Assembly: GCA_009619095.1 (NCBI GenBank) | Contig: WJOT01000033.1 | Location: 1 to 45,886, forward strand | Source of the DNA: Clostridia bacterium | GTDB taxonomy: Bacteria > UBA6262 > WVXT01 | Reading direction: 5' to 3' | DNA: 45,886 bases | In this document: positions 4,691 through 14,960 of the stretch, in pieces | Layout: each line of letters opens with the position of its first letter | Numbering within the stretch: position 1 is the stretch's first letter | Made by a program: the position numbers and the translations under genes | Notes under the pieces: model-generated | What the model saw: the letters and a program-made list of their open reading frames with translations, nothing else | Told to the model about the DNA's origin: nothing | Databases searched by the model: none

Positions 4691-4719
4691 TTGACAGAAG
4701 GATAGAATTCTTATAAGAT
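4691..4719 (+). promoter_or_regulatory. Sigma-70-type promoter of the tup-moa operon
   Basis: A perfect TTGACA at 4691-4696 is followed after 17 bases by TAAGAT at 4714-4719 (the overlapping TATAAG gives spacing 15). Transcription should start near 4726, giving a leader of about 160 bases before tupA. That leader holds the structured element and terminator described next. Confidence 0.7.
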
Positions 4720-4730
4720 AACTTAAAAAT

Positions 4731-4833
4731 ATTCTCCGAGCCATTTTATCTAAGTCTAAAAGATATGGTAAATGGCCGATAGAGTGTGCTGAGAAATTGG
4801 TGCACTTTCCGTGCTTGAGAAGGAGAAATTAAG
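4731..4833 (+). ncRNA. Candidate molybdenum/tungsten-cofactor riboswitch (Moco-RNA-like leader)
   Basis: The leader folds into a closed multi-stem domain by inspection. P1 is TTCTCC (4732-4737) with GGAGAA (4822-4827). A long arm pairs GCCATTT (4740-4746) with AAATGGC (4770-4776), capped by TATCT/AGATA (4747-4751 with 4761-4765). A short hairpin is GCAC-TTTCC-GTGC (4802-4814). An intrinsic terminator follows immediately. The operon it heads imports tungstate and makes molybdopterin, exactly the setting of the Moco RNA motif and its proposed Tuco variant. The match to the published consensus is from memory and was not computed, so the class is an inference; the stems are seen directly. Confidence 0.6.
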
Positions 4834-4874
4834 TCCAGTATTTTGCAAGTGCGGAATGCTGGATTTTTTATTTT
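4834..4874 (+). terminator. Intrinsic terminator in the tup-moa leader (attenuator)
   Basis: TCCAGTATT (4834-4842) pairs with AATGCTGGA (4855-4863) through nine base pairs including one G-T. A run of six T, an A and four more T follow. It lies after the promoter and before the tupA ribosome-binding site, so it must be read through for expression. It fits a transcription-attenuation riboswitch. Confidence 0.8.
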
Positions 4875-4889
4875 GGAGTGGATAAGAGC

Positions 4890-5747
4890 ATGTTGCGCTG
4901 GCAAAAGACTTTGATGATAATTTTGGTGTTAATGACAATCTCCTATCTCTTCTTTTCTGGGATTGTTCTCATATTAGCCGGAAGAGGAAAGAAACCACAA
5001 TTGACTTTAGCTACTACTACCAGCGTTCAGGACTCAGGACTTTTGGATGTTTTACTTTCACCATTTGAGGCAGAAAACAGGTGCAGAGTCAAAGTTATTG
5101 GTGTGGGGACTGGGCAGGCGATTCGCCTGGCTAAAGAAGGAAATGTAGATGTGATTTTAGTCCACGACCCGCCTCAAGAGGAGATGTTCGTGGAAGAGGG
5201 TTATGGAGTGAGAAGATATAACGTTATGTATAACGATTTTGTGATTGTGGGTCCAGAAGAAGACCCTGCTGATATTAAAGGTGGCAGGGAAGGAGTTAAA
5301 GCGCTCAAGGAGATTGCAACATCAAAATCTACCTTTATTTCTCGAGGAGACGATTCGGGAACACACAGGAAGGAGAGAGAACTGTGGAAGGTAGCGGGAA
5401 TTAAGCCTTGTGGAGGCTGGTACATCGAAGCAGGCACAGGAATGGCGGGAACTTTGAGGATTGCAAATGAGAGGAGAGCATATACATTGACTGATAGAGG
5501 AACTTATCTTGCACACAGAAAGGAGCTGGATTTAACTATTTTGATAGAAGAAGATGAGAATCTCTATAGCATAATTCCTCTTTCTAAAGAGAAGTATCCA
5601 CATATAAATTACCAACTGGCAATGAAACTCATTGGGTTCATTACAGGTGTTGAGGGACAGGTTATTATCAGGACTTACGGTCAAAAGGAGTATGGGCAGC
5701 CTCTCTTTTTTCCCTTGGCAGTTTCTGGACTTATTGAGGAGAAATAA
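4890..5747 (+). CDS. tupA: Tungstate ABC transporter, substrate-binding protein
   Basis: The 285-residue protein has one N-terminal hydrophobic segment (about residues 6-30), probably a signal or membrane anchor. The TupA signature follows: L-A-T-T-T-S-V-Q-D-S-G-L-L-D, and later the oxyanion-binding segment S-R-G-D-D-S-G-T-H-R-K-E. These motifs separate TupA/WtpA-like tungstate binders from ModA and from phosphate-binding PstS. It would capture tungstate (possibly also molybdate) outside the inner membrane for TupBC. ATG 4890 has GGAGTGG at proper spacing; GTG 4878 overlaps that site and is rejected. It is the first gene of a tightly packed operon; tupB overlaps its stop codon. Confidence 0.9.
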   Translation: MLRWQKTLMIILVLMTISYLFFSGIVLILAGRGKKPQLTLATTTSVQDSGLLDVLLSPFEAENRCRVKVIGVGTGQAIRLAKEGNVDVILVHDPPQEEMFVEEGYGVRRYNVMYNDFVIVGPEEDPADIKGGREGVKALKEIATSKSTFISRGDDSGTHRKERELWKVAGIKPCGGWYIEAGTGMAGTLRIANERRAYTLTDRGTYLAHRKELDLTILIEEDENLYSIIPLSKEKYPHINYQLAMKLIGFITGVEGQVIIRTYGQKEYGQPLFFPLAVSGLIEEK

Positions 5748-6439
5748 TGCAGAATATTCTTAGTGCCTTAAATAGAGCTCTGGGTTTAATTATCTCTTTA
5801 GATAGAGAAGTCTTCAGTATTGTTTTACTCTCTTTCTCCGTCTCACTGACTGCTGTATTTTTCTCTTCCTTATTCAGTCTTCCCTTGAGCCTGTTACTTG
5901 CTCTGAAAAAATTTCCAGGGAACAGATTCATTGTGAATACTATAAATAGCTTGATGGCAGTGCCGGCAGTGGCCATTGGGCTGGTCATTTATCTTCTCAT
6001 CAGCCGGCGAGGACCCTTAGGGATTCTGGAGCTACTTTATACACCTTGGGCTATGATTATTGCCCAGGCTGTTCTGGCTATTCCGATTATCACCAGCCTT
6101 TCTCATCAAACTCTGAAAAGAGTCGGTTCTATGGTTAAGGAGACAGCGGTCAGTTTGGGTGCCAGTAGATGGCAGATGGTTGTTACTGTGGTCAAAGAAG
6201 CAAAGAGTTCCCTTATGGTTGCATTCATTATGGGTTTTGCCCGGGTGATTGGAGAGACTGGTATGACGATGATGGTGGGAGGAAATATTAAGGGAGCTAC
6301 CAGAGTGATGACTACTGCTATTGCTCTGGAGACGATGAAAGGCGATTTCGAACTGGCAGTTGCTCTGGGGATTGTTCTTTTAATTGTCGCTTTTCTGGTC
6401 AATATTATTTTGCAAGCAATACAAGGAGCTGGCAGGTGA
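5747..6439 (+). CDS. tupB: Tungstate ABC transporter, permease
   Basis: The 230-residue membrane protein has about five to six hydrophobic helices. The permease-ATPase coupling loop follows residue 120: K-E-T-A-V-S-L-G-A-S-R-W-Q-M, the EAA motif of binding-protein-dependent permeases. The segment V-I-G-E-T-G-M-T-M-M-V-G-G-N is typical of TupB. The ATG shares its first base with the tupA stop (TAATG), so the two are translationally coupled. It forms the channel for tungstate with TupC. Confidence 0.9.
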   Translation: MQNILSALNRALGLIISLDREVFSIVLLSFSVSLTAVFFSSLFSLPLSLLLALKKFPGNRFIVNTINSLMAVPAVAIGLVIYLLISRRGPLGILELLYTPWAMIIAQAVLAIPIITSLSHQTLKRVGSMVKETAVSLGASRWQMVVTVVKEAKSSLMVAFIMGFARVIGETGMTMMVGGNIKGATRVMTTAIALETMKGDFELAVALGIVLLIVAFLVNIILQAIQGAGR

Positions 6440-7545
6440 ATATTGAAGCAAAAAAAGTTTGTAAGAGTTTTAACGGCAAGGAAGTTTTAAGAAATATCGA
6501 TATGGAGATTGTGGAAAGTAAAATCAACTGCGTGATTGGACCAAATGGCGCAGGGAAGACCACACTGTTCAAGATTCTCACCCTCCTGGATAAAGCGACC
6601 TGGGGAGAGGTTTATTTTGACGGTTCTCTTTCCTGTTCACTATCTCCGGAACAGAAGCTTAAGCTCCGGAGGAAGATTGGTGTAGTAATGCAAAACCCAT
6701 TTATGTTCAATACTTCTGTGTGGGAAAATATTGCCTATGGACTGAAATTGAGAGGAGATAACGATGTAGCGGGAAAAGTTGAAGAAGGATTAAAGATTAT
6801 CGAACTTTCCTCAATCAAAGACCAATCTGGACTGACCTTGTCCAGTGGAGAGGTTCAGAGAGTGGCACTGGCAAGAGCAATGGTTCTGGAGCCAGAGGTT
6901 CTTTTTTTAGATGAGCCGATGGCTAATCTTGACCCTTTGAGCAGGAAAATTATAGAGGGTTTAATCCTCAAGATGGAGAAGGAAGACAATGTAACTATTG
7001 TTATGGCGACTCATAATTTATTACAGGCTCGAAGATTTGGAGAGAGAGTGTTTGTATTAAGGCAGGGTGAAATTATACAACAGGGAACGGCTGAAGAAGT
7101 GTTTCATTATCCTAACTCTTCTTTTGCTGCTGAGTTTGTGGAAGTGGGGAATCTGTTCAAGGGTAAGGTGATTATTGAACAAGGCACTCAAAAGTTGGAT
7201 TTAGGGAAGATAAAAGTTGAGATTGTTCCTCACTCAGGATTTAATAAAACAAGGACTTCTGTTTTTGTTACTCTCCGTCCAGAAGATATTTTGCTCTCTC
7301 TGGAACCTCTCCATTCCAGTGCCCGCAACAGTTTCTTAGGTGAAATAATCAATATACAGGATAGAGGTGGAATTATCTGGGTTACTTTGGAGCCAATTCC
7401 CAGGTTATCGGATCCCAAAACTGAATCAGTTTCTACTCCATTTGTTGCTGTTATTACCAAGAGGTCGAAAGAAGAGATGGGTTTGAAAGTGGGTATGCGT
7501 GTCTATTTTACCTTTAAGGCCTCTTGTGTTAATGTGTTTGAGTAA
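6436..7545 (+). CDS. tupC: Tungstate ABC transporter, ATP-binding protein with C-terminal TOBE-like domain
   Basis: The 369-residue ATPase has Walker A G-P-N-G-A-G-K-T-T near residue 36, the signature L-S-S-G-E-V-Q-R-V-A-L-A-R-A, Walker B V-L-F-L-D-E-P and the switch histidine in A-T-H-N-L. About 130 residues follow the nucleotide-binding domain and contain T-L-R-P-E-D-I-L-L-S, as in the molybdate/TOBE regulatory domain of ModC-type ATPases. This domain can bind oxyanions and tune transport. The start GTG overlaps the tupB stop by four bases. It is longer than short TupC versions, which lack the extra domain. Confidence 0.9.
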   Translation: MNIEAKKVCKSFNGKEVLRNIDMEIVESKINCVIGPNGAGKTTLFKILTLLDKATWGEVYFDGSLSCSLSPEQKLKLRRKIGVVMQNPFMFNTSVWENIAYGLKLRGDNDVAGKVEEGLKIIELSSIKDQSGLTLSSGEVQRVALARAMVLEPEVLFLDEPMANLDPLSRKIIEGLILKMEKEDNVTIVMATHNLLQARRFGERVFVLRQGEIIQQGTAEEVFHYPNSSFAAEFVEVGNLFKGKVIIEQGTQKLDLGKIKVEIVPHSGFNKTRTSVFVTLRPEDILLSLEPLHSSARNSFLGEIINIQDRGGIIWVTLEPIPRLSDPKTESVSTPFVAVITKRSKEEMGLKVGMRVYFTFKASCVNVFE

Positions 7546-7567
7546 TCTCCAGAGTCTTTTTGGGGTA

Positions 7568-7585
7568 GTCCCGATTCATCGGGAC
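7568..7585. repeat. Palindrome GTCCCGAT-TC-ATCGGGAC
   Basis: A perfect 8-bp-arm inverted repeat lies in the tupC-moaA gap. The identical 18-mer occurs at 24301-24318, and related CCCGAT palindromes occur at 16313, 17562, 17646 and 40351. It belongs to the hairpin-cassette family rather than being a local operator. Confidence 0.75.
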
Positions 7586-7598
7586 GTTTGGTTAACGA

Positions 7599-7637
7599 TG
7601 TGAGGAAAATCACGCTGATTCTGTGATGGAAGTCACT
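7599..7637. promoter_or_regulatory. Two CRP/FNR-family-type operator palindromes ahead of moaA
   Basis: Two sites of the form TGTGA-N6-TCAC are present: TGTGA-GGAAAA-TCAC at 7599-7613 and TGTGA-TGGAAG-TCAC at 7622-7636. Their centres are 23 bp apart, about two helical turns. The pattern is that of CRP-superfamily binding sites (CRP, HcpR and relatives). TATAAT lies at 7659-7664. If transcription starts near 7671, the nearer site is centred at about -41.5, the classic activator position. In that case the moaA message would be almost leaderless. RNA hairpins in the tup transcript are an alternative reading. Confidence 0.5.
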
Positions 7638-7668
7638 GATAGATTCTAATTTTAAGGTTATAATTAAG

Positions 7669-8619
7669 ATGGAAAATGGATTAATCGATAGATACAACCG
7701 GAAGATAGATTATTTACGAATTTCGGTTACTGATAGATGTAACCTAAGGTGCTTCTATTGTATGCCTCCGTGCGGGATTAGAAAGCTTTCTTCTCAGGAG
7801 ATTTTGAAATATGAGGAGTTAATTGAAATTATTAAATGTGCCCGTGAGTTGGGGATTGGTAAGTTCAGGATTACTGGCGGAGAGCCGTTGGTTAGGAAAG
7901 GAATTATTGGTTTTATTGAAAAGTTAGCAGGGTTGGGGATAGATTTTTCACTGACTACTAATGGAATCCTTTTAAATAGATATGGACGGGACCTGTTTAA
8001 TGCTGGGCTTTCACGAATCAATATCAGTCTGGACACTTTAAAGGAGAATAGATTTAATCGGATTACTGGCGGCGGGGATATAAGAGAGGTCTTTTCAGGA
8101 ATTGATGCGGTGAGGAAGTTAAACTTTTCTCCTATTAAGATTAATGTGGTAGTGATGAGAGGAATAAATGATGATGAAATTATTGACTTTATTGAGTGGG
8201 GGAAGAGGGAACTTTTGAATGTGCGCTTCATTGAGTTTATGCCTTTATCTAGAGAGGACTACTTTTATCCCCTTAAAGTGATTATGGATAACATTATAGA
8301 AGAGAGGAAGATGGTTTCTGTTGAGGTTCCTGGTTCTGGCCCAGCGAGGAATTTTAAGTCCACAGATGGTGATAATATTGTTGGATTCATTCTCTCTCGC
8401 TCGGAGCCTTTCTGTAACGAGTGTAATCGCTTGAGGTTGACATCTAACGGTATGCTTCTTCCCTGTCTCTTTTCCAGAGAGGGTGTCGATTTGAAAAAAG
8501 TTTTGCGAGAGGGCGGGGATATACGAGGTCCTTTTTATGAGGCGGTTTCTGGGAAGCCTGAGAAGCACAATTTGAATGGTATTGGACAGTATCAGTATAT
8601 GAATCAGATTGGAGGCTAA
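7669..8619 (+). CDS. moaA: GTP 3',8-cyclase (molybdopterin biosynthesis)
   Basis: The 316-residue radical SAM enzyme turns GTP into 3',8-cyclo-7,8-dihydro-GTP, the first step to molybdopterin. The N-terminal cluster is C24-x3-C28-x2-C31 inside V-T-D-R-C-N-L-R-C-F-Y-C. The glycine motif is T-G-G-E-P-L. The C-terminal substrate cluster is C249-x2-C252-x13-C266. The protein ends in Gly-Gly, the conserved MoaA tail needed for activity in the family. It is slightly short (325-335 is usual) but has every key residue. ATG 7669 is the only good in-frame start; its ribosome site is weak (AAGG at 7654-7657). It lies downstream of tupC in the same orientation, with operator-like sites between. Confidence 0.95.
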   Translation: MENGLIDRYNRKIDYLRISVTDRCNLRCFYCMPPCGIRKLSSQEILKYEELIEIIKCARELGIGKFRITGGEPLVRKGIIGFIEKLAGLGIDFSLTTNGILLNRYGRDLFNAGLSRINISLDTLKENRFNRITGGGDIREVFSGIDAVRKLNFSPIKINVVVMRGINDDEIIDFIEWGKRELLNVRFIEFMPLSREDYFYPLKVIMDNIIEERKMVSVEVPGSGPARNFKSTDGDNIVGFILSRSEPFCNECNRLRLTSNGMLLPCLFSREGVDLKKVLREGGDIRGPFYEAVSGKPEKHNLNGIGQYQYMNQIGG

Positions 8620-8620
8620 G

Positions 8621-9118
8621 ATGAAGGGATTTACCCATTTTGATAGTGAAGGAAGGGCTAAGATGGTTGATGTTACAGGAAAGAGAATGACCAAAAGGAG
8701 TGCCACTGCTACAGGAACAATCTTTATGAAACAGGAGACCTTGAACTTGATTGAGAAGAGGAGAATTGTTAAAGGGGACGTGGTAACCGTAGCCAAAATT
8801 GCAGGAATTATGGGAGCGAAGAGAGTTAGTGAGTTGATTCCTCTGACACACCCGATAAAAATTACTGGTTGCGATATGGATTTCCAATTTTTGAGGCGGG
8901 GCGTGTCTCGGCAGAAGGGGGAGGCTGGCGTCAAGATAACTGCCAGGGCGAAAACAAAGGATGCTACAGGATGTGAAATGGAGGCTCTATTTGCTGTGGC
9001 TTGCGCAGCTTTGACTATTTACGATATGTGTAAAGCGGTAGAGAAGGAGATGATGATTGGCGATATATGTCTATTGGAAAAGAGCGGGGGAAAGAGCGGA
9101 AGATACATTAAAAGATAG
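8621..9118 (+). CDS. moaC: Cyclic pyranopterin monophosphate synthase
   Basis: The 165-residue protein converts the MoaA product to cyclic pyranopterin monophosphate. MoaC signatures are all present: F-D-x-E-G-R-A-K-M-V-D-V-T, R-S-A-T-A-T-G, the P-L-T-H-P segment, D-A-T-G-C-E-M-E-A, and the terminal E-K-S-G-G-K-S-G. ATG 8621 follows GGAGG by five bases and lies just past the moaA stop. The last codons and stop fall in the left end of a foldback repeat that recurs after mog, so the C-terminal residues I-K-R are repeat-derived. Confidence 0.95.
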   Translation: MKGFTHFDSEGRAKMVDVTGKRMTKRSATATGTIFMKQETLNLIEKRRIVKGDVVTVAKIAGIMGAKRVSELIPLTHPIKITGCDMDFQFLRRGVSRQKGEAGVKITARAKTKDATGCEMEALFAVACAALTIYDMCKAVEKEMMIGDICLLEKSGGKSGRYIKR

Positions 9119-9301: not shown

Positions 9302-9330
9302 GGGGCGTCTTTAAATGCTTGGAGGGAAAT

Positions 9331-9825
9331 ATGCAGATATCAGTGGGTATTTTGACTATTAGCGATAAGGGCTCGAAGGGCGAGAGGATTGATGAGAGTG
9401 GCAGAGTGATTAAGGAAATTGTTGAGGAGAAGTTGGAAGCGCGGGTGAAGAAATACGAAGTTGTCCCTGATGAGAAAGGAACTATAATTGAGAAATTAAA
9501 AGAGTTGGTGAATGATGGGATAGATTTAATTTTTACCACTGGAGGCACTGGTCTATCTCCCAGGGACGTGACGCCTGAGGCAACAAGGGAAGTTATCGAT
9601 AAGGAGGTGCCGGGCATAGAAGAAGCGATGAGAATGAAGGGTTTGGAGAAGACTCCACACTCGATGCTTTCCCGGGGAGTAGCTGGAGTGAGCAAAGGGA
9701 GTCTAATTGTCAATCTACCCGGTAGCCCTAAGGCGGTAAGAGAGTCTTTGGAAGTGGTTCTCCCGGCGGTACCACACGCTCTGGATATTATATCGGGTCG
9801 TGGTGGGGAGTGTGGAAGGCAATAA
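9331..9825 (+). CDS. mog: Molybdopterin adenylyltransferase (MogA/MoaB family)
   Basis: The 164-residue MogA/MoaB/CinA-fold protein adenylates molybdopterin to prepare metal insertion. Motifs are G-I-L-T-I-S-D-K-G, the nucleotide/pterin loop F-T-T-G-G-T-G-L-S-P-R-D-V-T-P-E-A, and V-N-L-P-G-S-P-K-A. ATG 9331 has GGAGGG five bases upstream; TTG 9319 is in frame but overlaps that site. No moeA, moaD or moaE gene is near, so the rest of the pathway must lie elsewhere. The stop codon directly abuts the foldback element at 9826. Confidence 0.92.
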   Translation: MQISVGILTISDKGSKGERIDESGRVIKEIVEEKLEARVKKYEVVPDEKGTIIEKLKELVNDGIDLIFTTGGTGLSPRDVTPEATREVIDKEVPGIEEAMRMKGLEKTPHSMLSRGVAGVSKGSLIVNLPGSPKAVRESLEVVLPAVPHALDIISGRGGECGRQ

Positions 9826-11799: not shown

Positions 11800-12831
11800 A
11801 TGGGAAAAAGGACTTATTTTTTTATATTTATTCTTGCCATTTTTTTCTTCTTTCGCCCCGCATTAATCTGCTTTGCTGCTGGCACAAGTGGAGCCATAAT
11901 TTTAAAGCAGACCAGTGGCGCCCGCCCTCTGGGAATTGGAGAAGCCTTTGTTGCTGTGGCTGATGATGTGAATGCTCTCCATTTTAATCCCGCCGGATTG
12001 GCCCAGATTAAAAGACATGAAATTAGTGTAATGTATCTGGATAGTTTAGTAGATACATGGTATGGATTCATCGGTTACGCATATCCGATAGGGGGAAAAG
12101 TCGAAAGGCAGAGAGGCAGGAGAAAGTTTAAATCAATAAAGGTGCGAAGAAACCGGGGAACAATTGCATTAGGCGTCTCTTCTTTACAGGCGGGAAAGAT
12201 GATTCTCCACCCGGAAGGTAACACTGTGCGTGCCGAGGAAGACTATTTAGCAAATTTAGGTTTTGGCTATATTATCTGGAGAAGCAGTGAAAAAGTTGAG
12301 AAAAGAAGGCGCAGGGCAAGGGCTACCCGTGAACTGAGAAATGAAGTATCTGTAGGAGTGGCCATTAAACTCGTCTATTCAACTTTAGTCCAGAAGTATT
12401 CGGCTATGGCCTATGCGGTTGATGTGGGAGCGCTGGGAAAGTTTATAGTAGGGAAGAACAGATTTCTTCTGGGAATTGCAGGACAGAACCTGGGGACGAA
12501 GATTAAGTTTGAAGAGGAAGGAGATTCCTTGCCTTTGACAGTGAGAGCGGGCGCTGCTTACCAGATGGACTTTAAACAGGAACATAGACTTACCATAAGC
12601 ACAGAGGCAGTAAAGCCAAATGATGGTGATTTTAGAGGGAGTGGGGGTATGGAGTACTGGTACAGGGAAGTTTTTGCCTTGAGGGCTGGCTATAAGATTG
12701 GCTACGATTTAGACTCTTTTACTTGTGGAGTAGGTTTCGTATGGAAAAATTTTCAGCTCGATTATGGCTGGGGAATGAACACTAGCAAAATGGGTGATAA
12801 CCACCGATTTTCTTTAACAACGAGGTTTTAG
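11800..12831 (+). CDS. PorV/PorQ-like outer-membrane beta-barrel protein
   Basis: The 343-residue protein has a signal peptide (hydrophobic to about residue 28). The highly typical opening follows: S-G-A-R-P-L-G-I-G-E-A-F-V-A-V-A-D-D-V-N-A and then F-N-P-A-G-L-A. This identifies the PorV/PorQ/UPF0164 branch of FadL-type barrels. Alternating strands continue to the final R-F. In Bacteroidetes PorV is the cargo shuttle of type 9 secretion; in other phyla the role of the family is unproven. Here it is directly upstream of a protein with a type-9-like/FlgD-like C-terminal domain. Two internal Lys/Arg-rich stretches (R-R-K-F-K and E-K-R-R-R-R-A-R) look like exposed loops. Confidence 0.8.
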   Translation: MGKRTYFFIFILAIFFFFRPALICFAAGTSGAIILKQTSGARPLGIGEAFVAVADDVNALHFNPAGLAQIKRHEISVMYLDSLVDTWYGFIGYAYPIGGKVERQRGRRKFKSIKVRRNRGTIALGVSSLQAGKMILHPEGNTVRAEEDYLANLGFGYIIWRSSEKVEKRRRRARATRELRNEVSVGVAIKLVYSTLVQKYSAMAYAVDVGALGKFIVGKNRFLLGIAGQNLGTKIKFEEEGDSLPLTVRAGAAYQMDFKQEHRLTISTEAVKPNDGDFRGSGGMEYWYREVFALRAGYKIGYDLDSFTCGVGFVWKNFQLDYGWGMNTSKMGDNHRFSLTTRF

Positions 12832-12833
12832 AT

Positions 12834-14960
12834 TTGAGTAGAAAAAAATTTCTTATTCTTTTTATAGTCTTGGTAGGTCTTGGTAGTATTATTAAAATTG
12901 CTGAGTCTGGCACGCTTAGTGATTCTGGAATGGGCCTGACCAATTTGTACAATAGTTCCGTGGCCTGGGGAGACATAGATAATGATGGAGACTTTGACCT
13001 GGCTATGATGGGCTGGGATGGAACAAATAAGTATTTCCAAATCTACGAGAATGGAGCAAATAATGGATTGAGTCTTTCACCACAGAGCCTGACAGCACTT
13101 AGCCACGGCTGTGTATCTTTTGGTGATTACGATAGGGATGGTGACCTCGATTTGGCAATTACGGGCAAGGACATTGAAGGGAATGGCACTACCAAAATTT
13201 ACCAGAATAATGGGAATGGAAATTTTAGCGATACTGGCATAGAAATGATAGATGTCTATGATAGTGCTCTTGCCTGGGGAGATTATGACAATGATGGTGA
13301 TTTAGACCTCGCGGTCATAGGATCTGGTATGATGGGGATAGGAAAGATTGCCAAAATATATGAGAATTATGAAAAAGAGGGCGTTATCACTTTTAAAGAC
13401 AGTGAAATAATAGATTTAACTCCTGTAGCCAGTGGCTATGTCGCTTGGGCGGACTATGATAATGATGGATGGTTAGATATAGCCATTTGTGGAGACTCGA
13501 TTGGAGGGTATGTCTCTGAAATCTGGAAGAATGACGGAGATGGAAGTTTCACTAAGACAGATGATTTGACTGGAGTTTACAACAGCTCTTTAGCCTGGGG
13601 AGACTACAATAATGATGGATGGTTAGATATAGCCATTTGTGGAGACACGATTGGAGAGTGTGTCTCTGAAATCTGGAAGAATGATGGAGGAACGTTCAGT
13701 GGGCCTCAAAGCTTGGATGGGGTGTACAACAGCTCTTTAGCCTGGGGTGACTATGATAATGATGGAGACCTTGACCTGGTAGTAACAGGATTAACGAGTG
13801 GGCCGGAGCCGGGACCGAGTTCAAAAATATATAGGAATAAAGGAGACGGCACATTTGAGGATAGTGGTATATTAGATTTAACTCCTGTAGATTTGGGAAG
13901 TGTTGCCTGGTGCGATTACGATGGAGACAAGGATATCGACCTGGCTTTGACAGGTGACTCTGGTAGTGGTGCGGTCACGAAAATTTATATGAGCGATGGA
14001 TTCCCAGAAAACAATCTTCCCAAACCTCCTGAGAGTAGCTCTCTCAAAGCAGAGTATAATTCTGCTGACGGGGAACTTACCATAAGTTGGTCTAGTGGTT
14101 CAGACACGGAAACTGATCCGGCAACTGGTCTGTATTATAATTTCCGAATTGGCTCAGAACCAGGGAAAGACGACCTTGTAGCAGCAAGATATGGGAGCCC
14201 TCTATTAGGAAATTTTATTTCTAAAAGTACTACCACAGTGCATACTCGCACTTTCACCCTTTACGCTAAGGGATACTATTGGAGTGTTCAGGTAATTGAT
14301 ACTGGTCTGGGATGTAGCTGGTCTCAGGAGGGAGAGGGGAGTGGCTGGTCCGGGGAGGACCAGTACCACGATGACACACCTCCGCCAGCACCGGAGACGC
14401 CTACCGATGAGGGGGAATATACATATAATACTACAATTCGTTTTAGCTGGACTCAGAATAATTCTGATCCCCAAACGGCAATCTATAACTATAGGTTACA
14501 GGTGGAGTCTCAAGAAGATGGGAAGATAAAATTTGATGGCAGTGTGGGTGACGTTAAGAGTTACAACGTTTCAGGATGTGAATATAATAAAACATACAAG
14601 GCGCGAGTGAAAGCACAGAGTGGAGGTGGCTATGGTGACTGGTCAGCAGACTGGAGCAATGGCATAATGGTTGTTCGGCTCCTCGACATATCTTACAACT
14701 TGATTCATCCCAGGAAAGGAGAAGAAGCGACCATTAAATACTTTATAATAAGTTCAGCCAAAGTTAATTTAAAAATCTATAACCTGATGGGTGAGCTGGT
14801 GAGAAGTTTAGTCGATAACCAATATAAGGCGGTTGACGACTACGTGGAGACTTGGTCTGGAGAGAATGAAAAGGGCTCAACCGTAGCCAGTGGAATCTAC
14901 TTAGTGCACATAGAGGTGGAAGGAGAAAGTGCAACAGAGAAAATATGTGTGGTAAAATGA
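12834..14960 (+). CDS. Secreted FG-GAP/VCBS seven-repeat protein with Fn3-like domains and FlgD-like C-terminus
   Basis: The 708-residue protein has a signal peptide followed by seven copies of a W-G-D-Y-D-N-D-G-D-L-D-L-A-like calcium-binding motif at roughly 50-60 residue spacing (residues about 40-380). Seven repeats are what a complete integrin-type beta-propeller needs. Two Ig/fibronectin-like domains follow (about 390-520 and 520-620). The last 90 residues (V-N-L-K-I-Y-N-L-M-G-E-L-V-R-S-L ending A-S-G-I-Y-L-V-H-I) match the FlgD-Ig/type A sorting domain class. It is probably exported to the cell surface. The start is TTG, three bases after the PorV-like stop. Some blades are nearly identical at DNA level. 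Confidence 0.85.
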   Translation: MSRKKFLILFIVLVGLGSIIKIAESGTLSDSGMGLTNLYNSSVAWGDIDNDGDFDLAMMGWDGTNKYFQIYENGANNGLSLSPQSLTALSHGCVSFGDYDRDGDLDLAITGKDIEGNGTTKIYQNNGNGNFSDTGIEMIDVYDSALAWGDYDNDGDLDLAVIGSGMMGIGKIAKIYENYEKEGVITFKDSEIIDLTPVASGYVAWADYDNDGWLDIAICGDSIGGYVSEIWKNDGDGSFTKTDDLTGVYNSSLAWGDYNNDGWLDIAICGDTIGECVSEIWKNDGGTFSGPQSLDGVYNSSLAWGDYDNDGDLDLVVTGLTSGPEPGPSSKIYRNKGDGTFEDSGILDLTPVDLGSVAWCDYDGDKDIDLALTGDSGSGAVTKIYMSDGFPENNLPKPPESSSLKAEYNSADGELTISWSSGSDTETDPATGLYYNFRIGSEPGKDDLVAARYGSPLLGNFISKSTTTVHTRTFTLYAKGYYWSVQVIDTGLGCSWSQEGEGSGWSGEDQYHDDTPPPAPETPTDEGEYTYNTTIRFSWTQNNSDPQTAIYNYRLQVESQEDGKIKFDGSVGDVKSYNVSGCEYNKTYKARVKAQSGGGYGDWSADWSNGIMVVRLLDISYNLIHPRKGEEATIKYFIISSAKVNLKIYNLMGELVRSLVDNQYKAVDDYVETWSGENEKGSTVASGIYLVHIEVEGESATEKICVVK
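13461..13684 (+). repeat. Near-identical 150-bp internal duplication within the FG-GAP gene
   Basis: Bases 13461-13532 and 13611-13682 match with only a handful of differences, at an offset of exactly 150 bp (50 codons). A second echo (TACAACAGCTCTTTAGCCTG) occurs near 13577 and 13725. Blades four to six therefore arose or were homogenised recently. Confidence 0.85.

Follow-up and report, generated by a model that had tools for sequence, protein, structure and literature searches.

Moco RNAs and the leader upstream of the tup genes

The closest described system is the Moco RNA motif (Rfam RF01055), for which Regulski et al. 2008 (PMC2408646) reported that 58 of 176 RNAs lack stem P3 and proposed that these variants sense the tungsten cofactor (Tuco); 17 of the 19 organisms with P3-lacking RNAs carry tungsten genes. 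Elements in P2 act as a receptor for the GAAA tetraloop (PMC2408646). The tungsten proposal has stood since 2008, the instability of the cofactor having kept the source paper from demonstrating direct ligand binding by any Moco RNA, and later reviews that name the tungsten cofactor as a riboswitch ligand cite that same paper. In E. coli, the P3-containing RNA is reportedly unresponsive to tungstate, and E. coli genetics indicate that the response requires the metal as well as biosynthetic genes (PMC2408646). For the transport protein, the reference is D. alaskensis TupA, whose oxyanion site is formed by TTTS, H59, R118, T124 and D170; TupA proteins bind molybdate too, more weakly (PMC5517513).

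Within the window, the whole 45,886-nt stretch of DNA that was analysed, RF01055 matched at 4722-4841 of the forward strand with 74.5 bits (E 2.6e-16) over model positions 1-135, its full length. The gathering score of the family is 36 bits, and no other Rfam match in the window exceeded its threshold; the guess of the first-pass annotation that this was a Moco RNA, offered with a covariance-model search as its check, proved right. The window copy is also the single Moco RNA returned by an RF01055 search of its own genome, and the leader folds with a z of -3.67 against dinucleotide shuffles, 0 of 200 of which were equally stable. The promoter and the parts of the aptamer are as follows.

4691-4719, + strand: sigma-70-type promoter (TTGACA 4691-4696, 17-nt spacer, TAAGAT 4714-4719; 10 of 12 consensus matches)
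4722-4841, + strand: Moco/Tuco RNA aptamer of the P3-lacking form (RF01055; covariance-model match and covariation)
4732-4737 and 4822-4827, + strand: P1, 5' strand TTCTCC and 3' strand GGAGAA (model match, folding and covariation)
4740-4776, + strand: P2, strands 4740-4750 and 4767-4776 (model match and covariation)
4750-4754 and 4764-4768, + strand: tetraloop receptor elements CTAAG and TATGG in P2 (role from Regulski 2008)
4777-4781, + strand: J2/4 linker CGATA, 5 nt, where P3 would be (model match and helix scoring)
4782-4807, + strand: P4, strands 4782-4792 and 4797-4807, with GAAA tetraloop 4793-4796 (alignment and covariation)
4808-4818, + strand: P5 (TC/GA) and its loop, strands 4808-4809 and 4817-4818 (alignment and covariation)

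The TTGACA and TATAAGAT elements are present in every genus copy read. As the promoter ends at 4719, transcription probably starts close to position 4726, shortly upstream of P1, which would move the 5' boundary of the aptamer from 4722 to about 4726.

Pairing was evaluated in an alignment of 40 P3-lacking RNAs that took the window's own fold as its structure. Standard pairs occupied 90.3% of pair cells, a fraction that leans towards the window because the structure came from its fold; double-sided changes, which are less affected by this bias, occurred at 27 of 33 pairs, and the covariation score was 0.65 versus 0.21 for shuffles and at most 0.17 with partners slid by one column. Compensatory changes in relatives, which the first-pass annotation had suggested looking for, are thereby plentiful, and neither outcome that it named as counting against the leader (no covariance hit, or conservation in the terminator alone) was found.

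Most of what had been noticed at first pass was borne out, including the TTGACA promoter, the P1 strands, and an arm GCCATTT (4740-4746)/AAATGGC (4770-4776) that is the consensus P2, together with the terminator and operon described below. The exception is a hairpin read as GCAC (4802-4805)-TTTCC-GTGC (4811-4814), which lies outside the consensus fold and competes with P4, since its 5' arm sits in the P4 3' strand (4797-4807); its GTGC is part of the P5 loop and of the antiterminator strand. Compared with RF01055, the window RNA shares P1, P2 with its receptor, P4 with its GAAA loop, P5, compensated pairing in all four stems, a position before molybdopterin (MPT) synthesis and oxyanion-transport genes, and a terminator-type expression platform. 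It differs in having just CGATA in place of P3, an A-U as P4 pair 2 (G-C in 37 of the 40 RNAs, the A-U being confined to three genus copies), and a U-A as P5 pair 1 in its genus where most relatives have C-G; both pairs are otherwise nearly constant. Compared with the Tuco variant (PMC2408646), no defining difference was seen: both lack P3 and head a TupABC-type transporter and MPT genes in a host with AOR genes, and in both the ligand is a proposal. The leader clearly belongs, with good support, to the P3-lacking form of the known riboswitch family for molybdenum and tungsten cofactors, and is a good test case and not a new kind of switch.

Elsewhere in the family, L147, L148, L149, L150, L153 and L154 have a P4 loop of GCAA and not GAAA, together with a short P2 without the usual receptor, in agreement with the loop-receptor correlation of the 2008 paper (PMC2408646); several of them precede formate dehydrogenase or AOR genes.

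The operon and its host

Like other family members, the RNA precedes genes for Moco/Tuco synthesis and transport.

4875-4878, + strand: GGAG, a possible tupA ribosome-binding site judged by its sequence
4890-5747, + strand: tupA-like tungstate-binding protein (NF041772 197.3 bits, cut-off 400; alternative start GTG 4878)
5747-6439, + strand: tupB-like permease (NF041773 172.7 bits, cut-off 320)
6436-7545, + strand: tupC-like ATPase with TOBE domain (best match WtpC 262 bits, cut-off 440)
7669-8619, + strand: moaA, GTP 3',8-cyclase (TIGR02666 324.7 bits, cut-off 284)
8609-9118, + strand: moaC (TIGR00581 188.2 bits, cut-off 141.5)
9319-9825, + strand: mog/moaB-type molybdopterin adenylyltransferase-like (PRK09417 153.7 bits, cut-off 158; PF00994)

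Profiles support the gene order tupABC-moaA-moaC-mog read at first pass. The scores of MoaA and MoaC exceed the cut-offs; those of TupA, TupB and the ATPase fall short of the NCBIfam equivalog cut-offs, as did every TupA match seen in our genome searches against NF041772. We call the window protein TupA-like for this reason (197 versus 400 bits), the one point in which it differs from the described TupABC transporter. Its best PDB match is the tungstate-binding protein 3lr1 (E 2e-77), with 5my5 also among the best, and in alignment to these two structures all of the oxyanion-site residues are kept, with equivalents of TTTS, the histidine (H59), Arg118, Thr124 and Asp170 of D. alaskensis TupA (PMC5517513). 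The 123-nt gap between tupC and moaA (7546-7668) contains a 7-bp hairpin (7568-7585) and the promoter-like CTGATA-17-TATAAT, both at chance frequency, and moaA could have a promoter of its own there; given this gap and its contents, the moa genes are presumed to be co-transcribed with tup.

The same genome carries two AFOR (AOR) genes, one MoeA and one formate dehydrogenase alpha gene, and a profile search of it gave no match for ModA, which falls short of proof of absence because the assembly is 86% complete. The formate dehydrogenase alpha gene lies on another contig (L158, C82) next to genes for acetyl-CoA synthase (acsD) and corrinoid activation in a Wood-Ljungdahl-type cluster, in the same genome as the PorV and type IX secretion-signal genes at 11800-14960 of the window; this lone enzyme could take molybdenum. 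Three other genomes of the genus have the same RNA and tup genes, one of them (L018) with the complete order tupABC-moaA-moaC-mog. A sister family in the same taxonomic order is represented by two available genomes, and in these the RNA, TupA and MoeA were all unmatched. A public contig titled Clostridia bacterium (L017) encodes a TupA 94% identical to that of the window; given the PorV and type IX genes of the window genome, the title may be a misassignment.

The host carries tungsten genes of the kind associated with P3-lacking RNAs, namely two for AFOR and one for the TupA-like protein, and ModA was unmatched in it. The first-pass annotation had pointed to this leader as a place to look for a Tuco-type sensor, and the tungsten setting it supposed is there; for the ligand itself, we infer that the tungsten form is the most likely, because operon and genome serve tungsten.

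Terminator, antiterminator and the predicted switch

An intrinsic terminator follows the aptamer, as had been noticed at first pass, and transcript folding yields a competing antiterminator.

4834-4869, + strand: intrinsic terminator (TCCAGTATTTTGC-AAGT-GCGGAATGCTGGA, hairpin 4834-4863, T6 4864-4869; -19.5 kcal/mol)
4807-4817, + strand: antiterminator 5' strand TTCCGTGCTTG, in the aptamer core (transcript folding)
4846-4856, + strand: antiterminator 3' strand CAAGTGCGGAA, running from the final base of the terminator's 5' arm through the loop into the start of the 3' arm

The two antiterminator strands can form 11 bp that exclude the terminator (ViennaRNA). For a transcript of 131 nt (end 4856), the optimum contains the antiterminator, at -40.7 versus -34.3 kcal/mol for the P1-closed aptamer, and at 139 nt (end 4864) the aptamer with the terminator, at -48.3, beats -40.1. 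This crossover was repeated in the three other genus copies, and the antiterminator is kept in all four copies examined; in one relative from the genus (G002), the terminator loop has C in place of U, so that an antiterminator G-U pair becomes G-C. The attenuator reading given at first pass was thus right in form, with an aptamer followed by mutually exclusive antiterminator and terminator. A different antiterminator candidate, AAAATATT (4726-4733) with AGTATTTT (4837-4844), was rejected for the stronger 4807-4817/4846-4856 pairing, having reached just -29.5 versus -29.2 before the terminator. Sequestration of the ribosome-binding site, by pairing of TTCTCC with GGAG 4875-4878, was considered and set aside in favour of termination.

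On the model that these folds suggest, the P5/J strand 4807-4817 would, in the absence of ligand, pair with 4846-4856 in the loop and 3' arm of the terminator, so that the antiterminator blocks the terminator and tupABC-moaA-moaC-mog is transcribed. Binding of the cofactor, most likely its tungsten form, would hold P1, P4 and P5 together and leave the antiterminator unable to form, and RNA polymerase would stop in the T-run 4864-4869. As the antiterminator uses P5 and its loop, a ligand-held aptamer should free the terminator, and we regard it as fairly probable that this P3-lacking Moco-family riboswitch is a transcriptional OFF switch on tungstate uptake and molybdopterin synthesis that most likely answers to the tungsten cofactor. 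The sign of regulation is a prediction, since the folding energies leave out ligand, Mg2+ and transcription speed; it also depends on kinetics, because the aptamer can coexist with the terminator and both are in the final equilibrium state (ViennaRNA). That compatibility would also suit an ON switch, with ligand favouring readthrough of the terminator, which we nevertheless consider very improbable: the antiterminator takes strands of the aptamer core, so that ligand binding ought to promote termination, and feedback repression is what would be expected of uptake and synthesis genes.

The generality of the predicted pairing was examined in 114 Moco RNAs, in each of which the corresponding core strand was paired with the next 85 nt downstream. 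For the 46 RNAs with a terminator-like hairpin, which include the window and its three genus mates, the mean z was -1.67 versus shuffled cores and -1.28 versus shuffled downstream sequence, compared with -0.39 and -0.29 for the 68 RNAs without one and about 0 for a control strand from P2. The difference between RNAs with and without a terminator is significant by a Mann-Whitney test that leaves relatedness uncorrected (p 2.6e-5).

Stem P3, transporters and enzymes across the family

Our survey covered 386 genomes plus added relatives; a phylum search around G366 yielded just four genomes. The presence of P3 was judged in 115 Moco RNAs from helix scores and from reading by eye. P3 was present in 14 and absent in 101. 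AFOR genes were found in 47 of 64 RNA-bearing genomes versus 7 of 42 lacking the RNA (Fisher p 1e-8), and all AOR operons found have P3-lacking RNAs. A separation within single genomes is seen in one genus (G116, G247, G366 and the added G391), where P3-containing RNAs stand at modABC and, in the same genomes, P3-lacking RNAs at wtpABC and NAD aldehyde dehydrogenase genes. Other cases run counter to this split: one family (G132, G263, G382) carries P3 at its tup operons and another (G035, G179, G305) at its wtp-type operons, modA lies downstream of P3-lacking RNAs in G160 and G189, and the family-level association of P3 with transporter type was not significant (Fisher p 0.12). Among genomes with P3-lacking RNAs, 14 gave no AFOR match, which is still compatible with a tungsten formate dehydrogenase, and 13 of these had no TupA match either; in 5 of the 14, the operon holds a cluster-mate of a MOT1-type molybdate permease (one representative was profiled). 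The equation of missing P3 with tungsten is supported within one genus and is not clean as a general rule, and on the strength of the 13 genomes without AFOR or TupA matches we reject the idea that absence of P3 alone proves a tungsten ligand. For this reason, the tungsten assignment of the window leader draws on gene context and not on its missing stem.

These exceptions give weight to a reading in which the RNA and its terminator switch are the same, and the aptamer senses the molybdenum cofactor or both metals alike, with the imported oxyanion setting the link to tungsten. It would account for the 101 P3-lacking RNAs reaching genomes short of AFOR and TupA, for those preceding modA and for the non-significant family-level test, yet it sits poorly with the division of P3 between modABC and wtpABC/NAD aldehyde dehydrogenase genes within one genus, with the reported indifference of the P3-containing E. 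coli RNA to tungstate, and with the published correlation in 17 of 19 organisms; we judge it unlikely, though a serious competitor. Considerably less probable is that the RNA, instead of sensing the finished metal cofactor, answers to molybdopterin without metal or to another molybdopterin species, or depends on a protein partner. The source paper (PMC2408646) gives the class no protein-free binding, which would fit, whereas its E. coli genetics indicate a response that requires the metal as well as biosynthetic genes. We suggest tentatively, at somewhat less than even confidence, that the missing P3 is an ordinary, widespread form and not a tungsten determinant, that metal choice would be made elsewhere in the core or not by the RNA, and that terminator-type Moco/Tuco switches share one platform with the P5/J strand as antiterminator.

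L127, L130, L140, L146 and L151 lack P3, have an enlarged P5 hairpin and precede moa/moe genes, and none of their genomes gave a match for AFOR or TupA; a molybdenum-type group may be marked by P5 and not by P3. Moco RNAs lie directly before NAD-type aldehyde dehydrogenase genes in the genus with both RNA forms (L086, L092, L118 and L161, in G116, G247, G366 and G391) and also at L066, L133, L120 and L048, of which L048 alone has P3; the G116, G247 and G366 genomes hold AFOR genes besides. The NAD enzyme looks like a metal-free isozyme that would be turned off when the tungsten cofactor is plentiful. B12 riboswitches control metE in a comparable isozyme manner. The operons of other P3-lacking RNAs include TonB-dependent receptors (L056, L061, L065, L083, L090, L094, L126, L132) or O/P-type porins (L060, L131, L139, L145), in some cases adjacent to tupA; tungstate, or a carrier of it, may thus be imported across the outer membrane. 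At L043 and L063, P3-lacking RNAs lie upstream of a gene for a DUF364 protein, described in Pfam as a putative heavy-metal chelation domain, followed by ABC transporter genes at L043, and closely spaced pairs of Moco RNAs occur upstream of tup-type operons at L132 (about 154 nt apart) and in G302 (C20, 147005 and 147661).

In assigning the antiterminator and testing the P3 rule, the analysis goes further than the statements in the Moco RNA literature that we found, in an incomplete search on which we base no claim of priority; pairing between core and downstream sequence is also enriched in other terminator-bearing Moco RNAs. According to the survey, the P3 criterion alone is unfit for assigning ligands. 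The window leader offers a clean case: each genome has a single RNA, the transporter is of tungstate type, ModA is unmatched, the terminator is compact and the antiterminator is precisely predicted. In the genus of G116, G247, G366 and G391, P3-containing and P3-lacking RNAs stand at the molybdate and tungstate transporters of one cell, which would make the question of metal choice directly testable.
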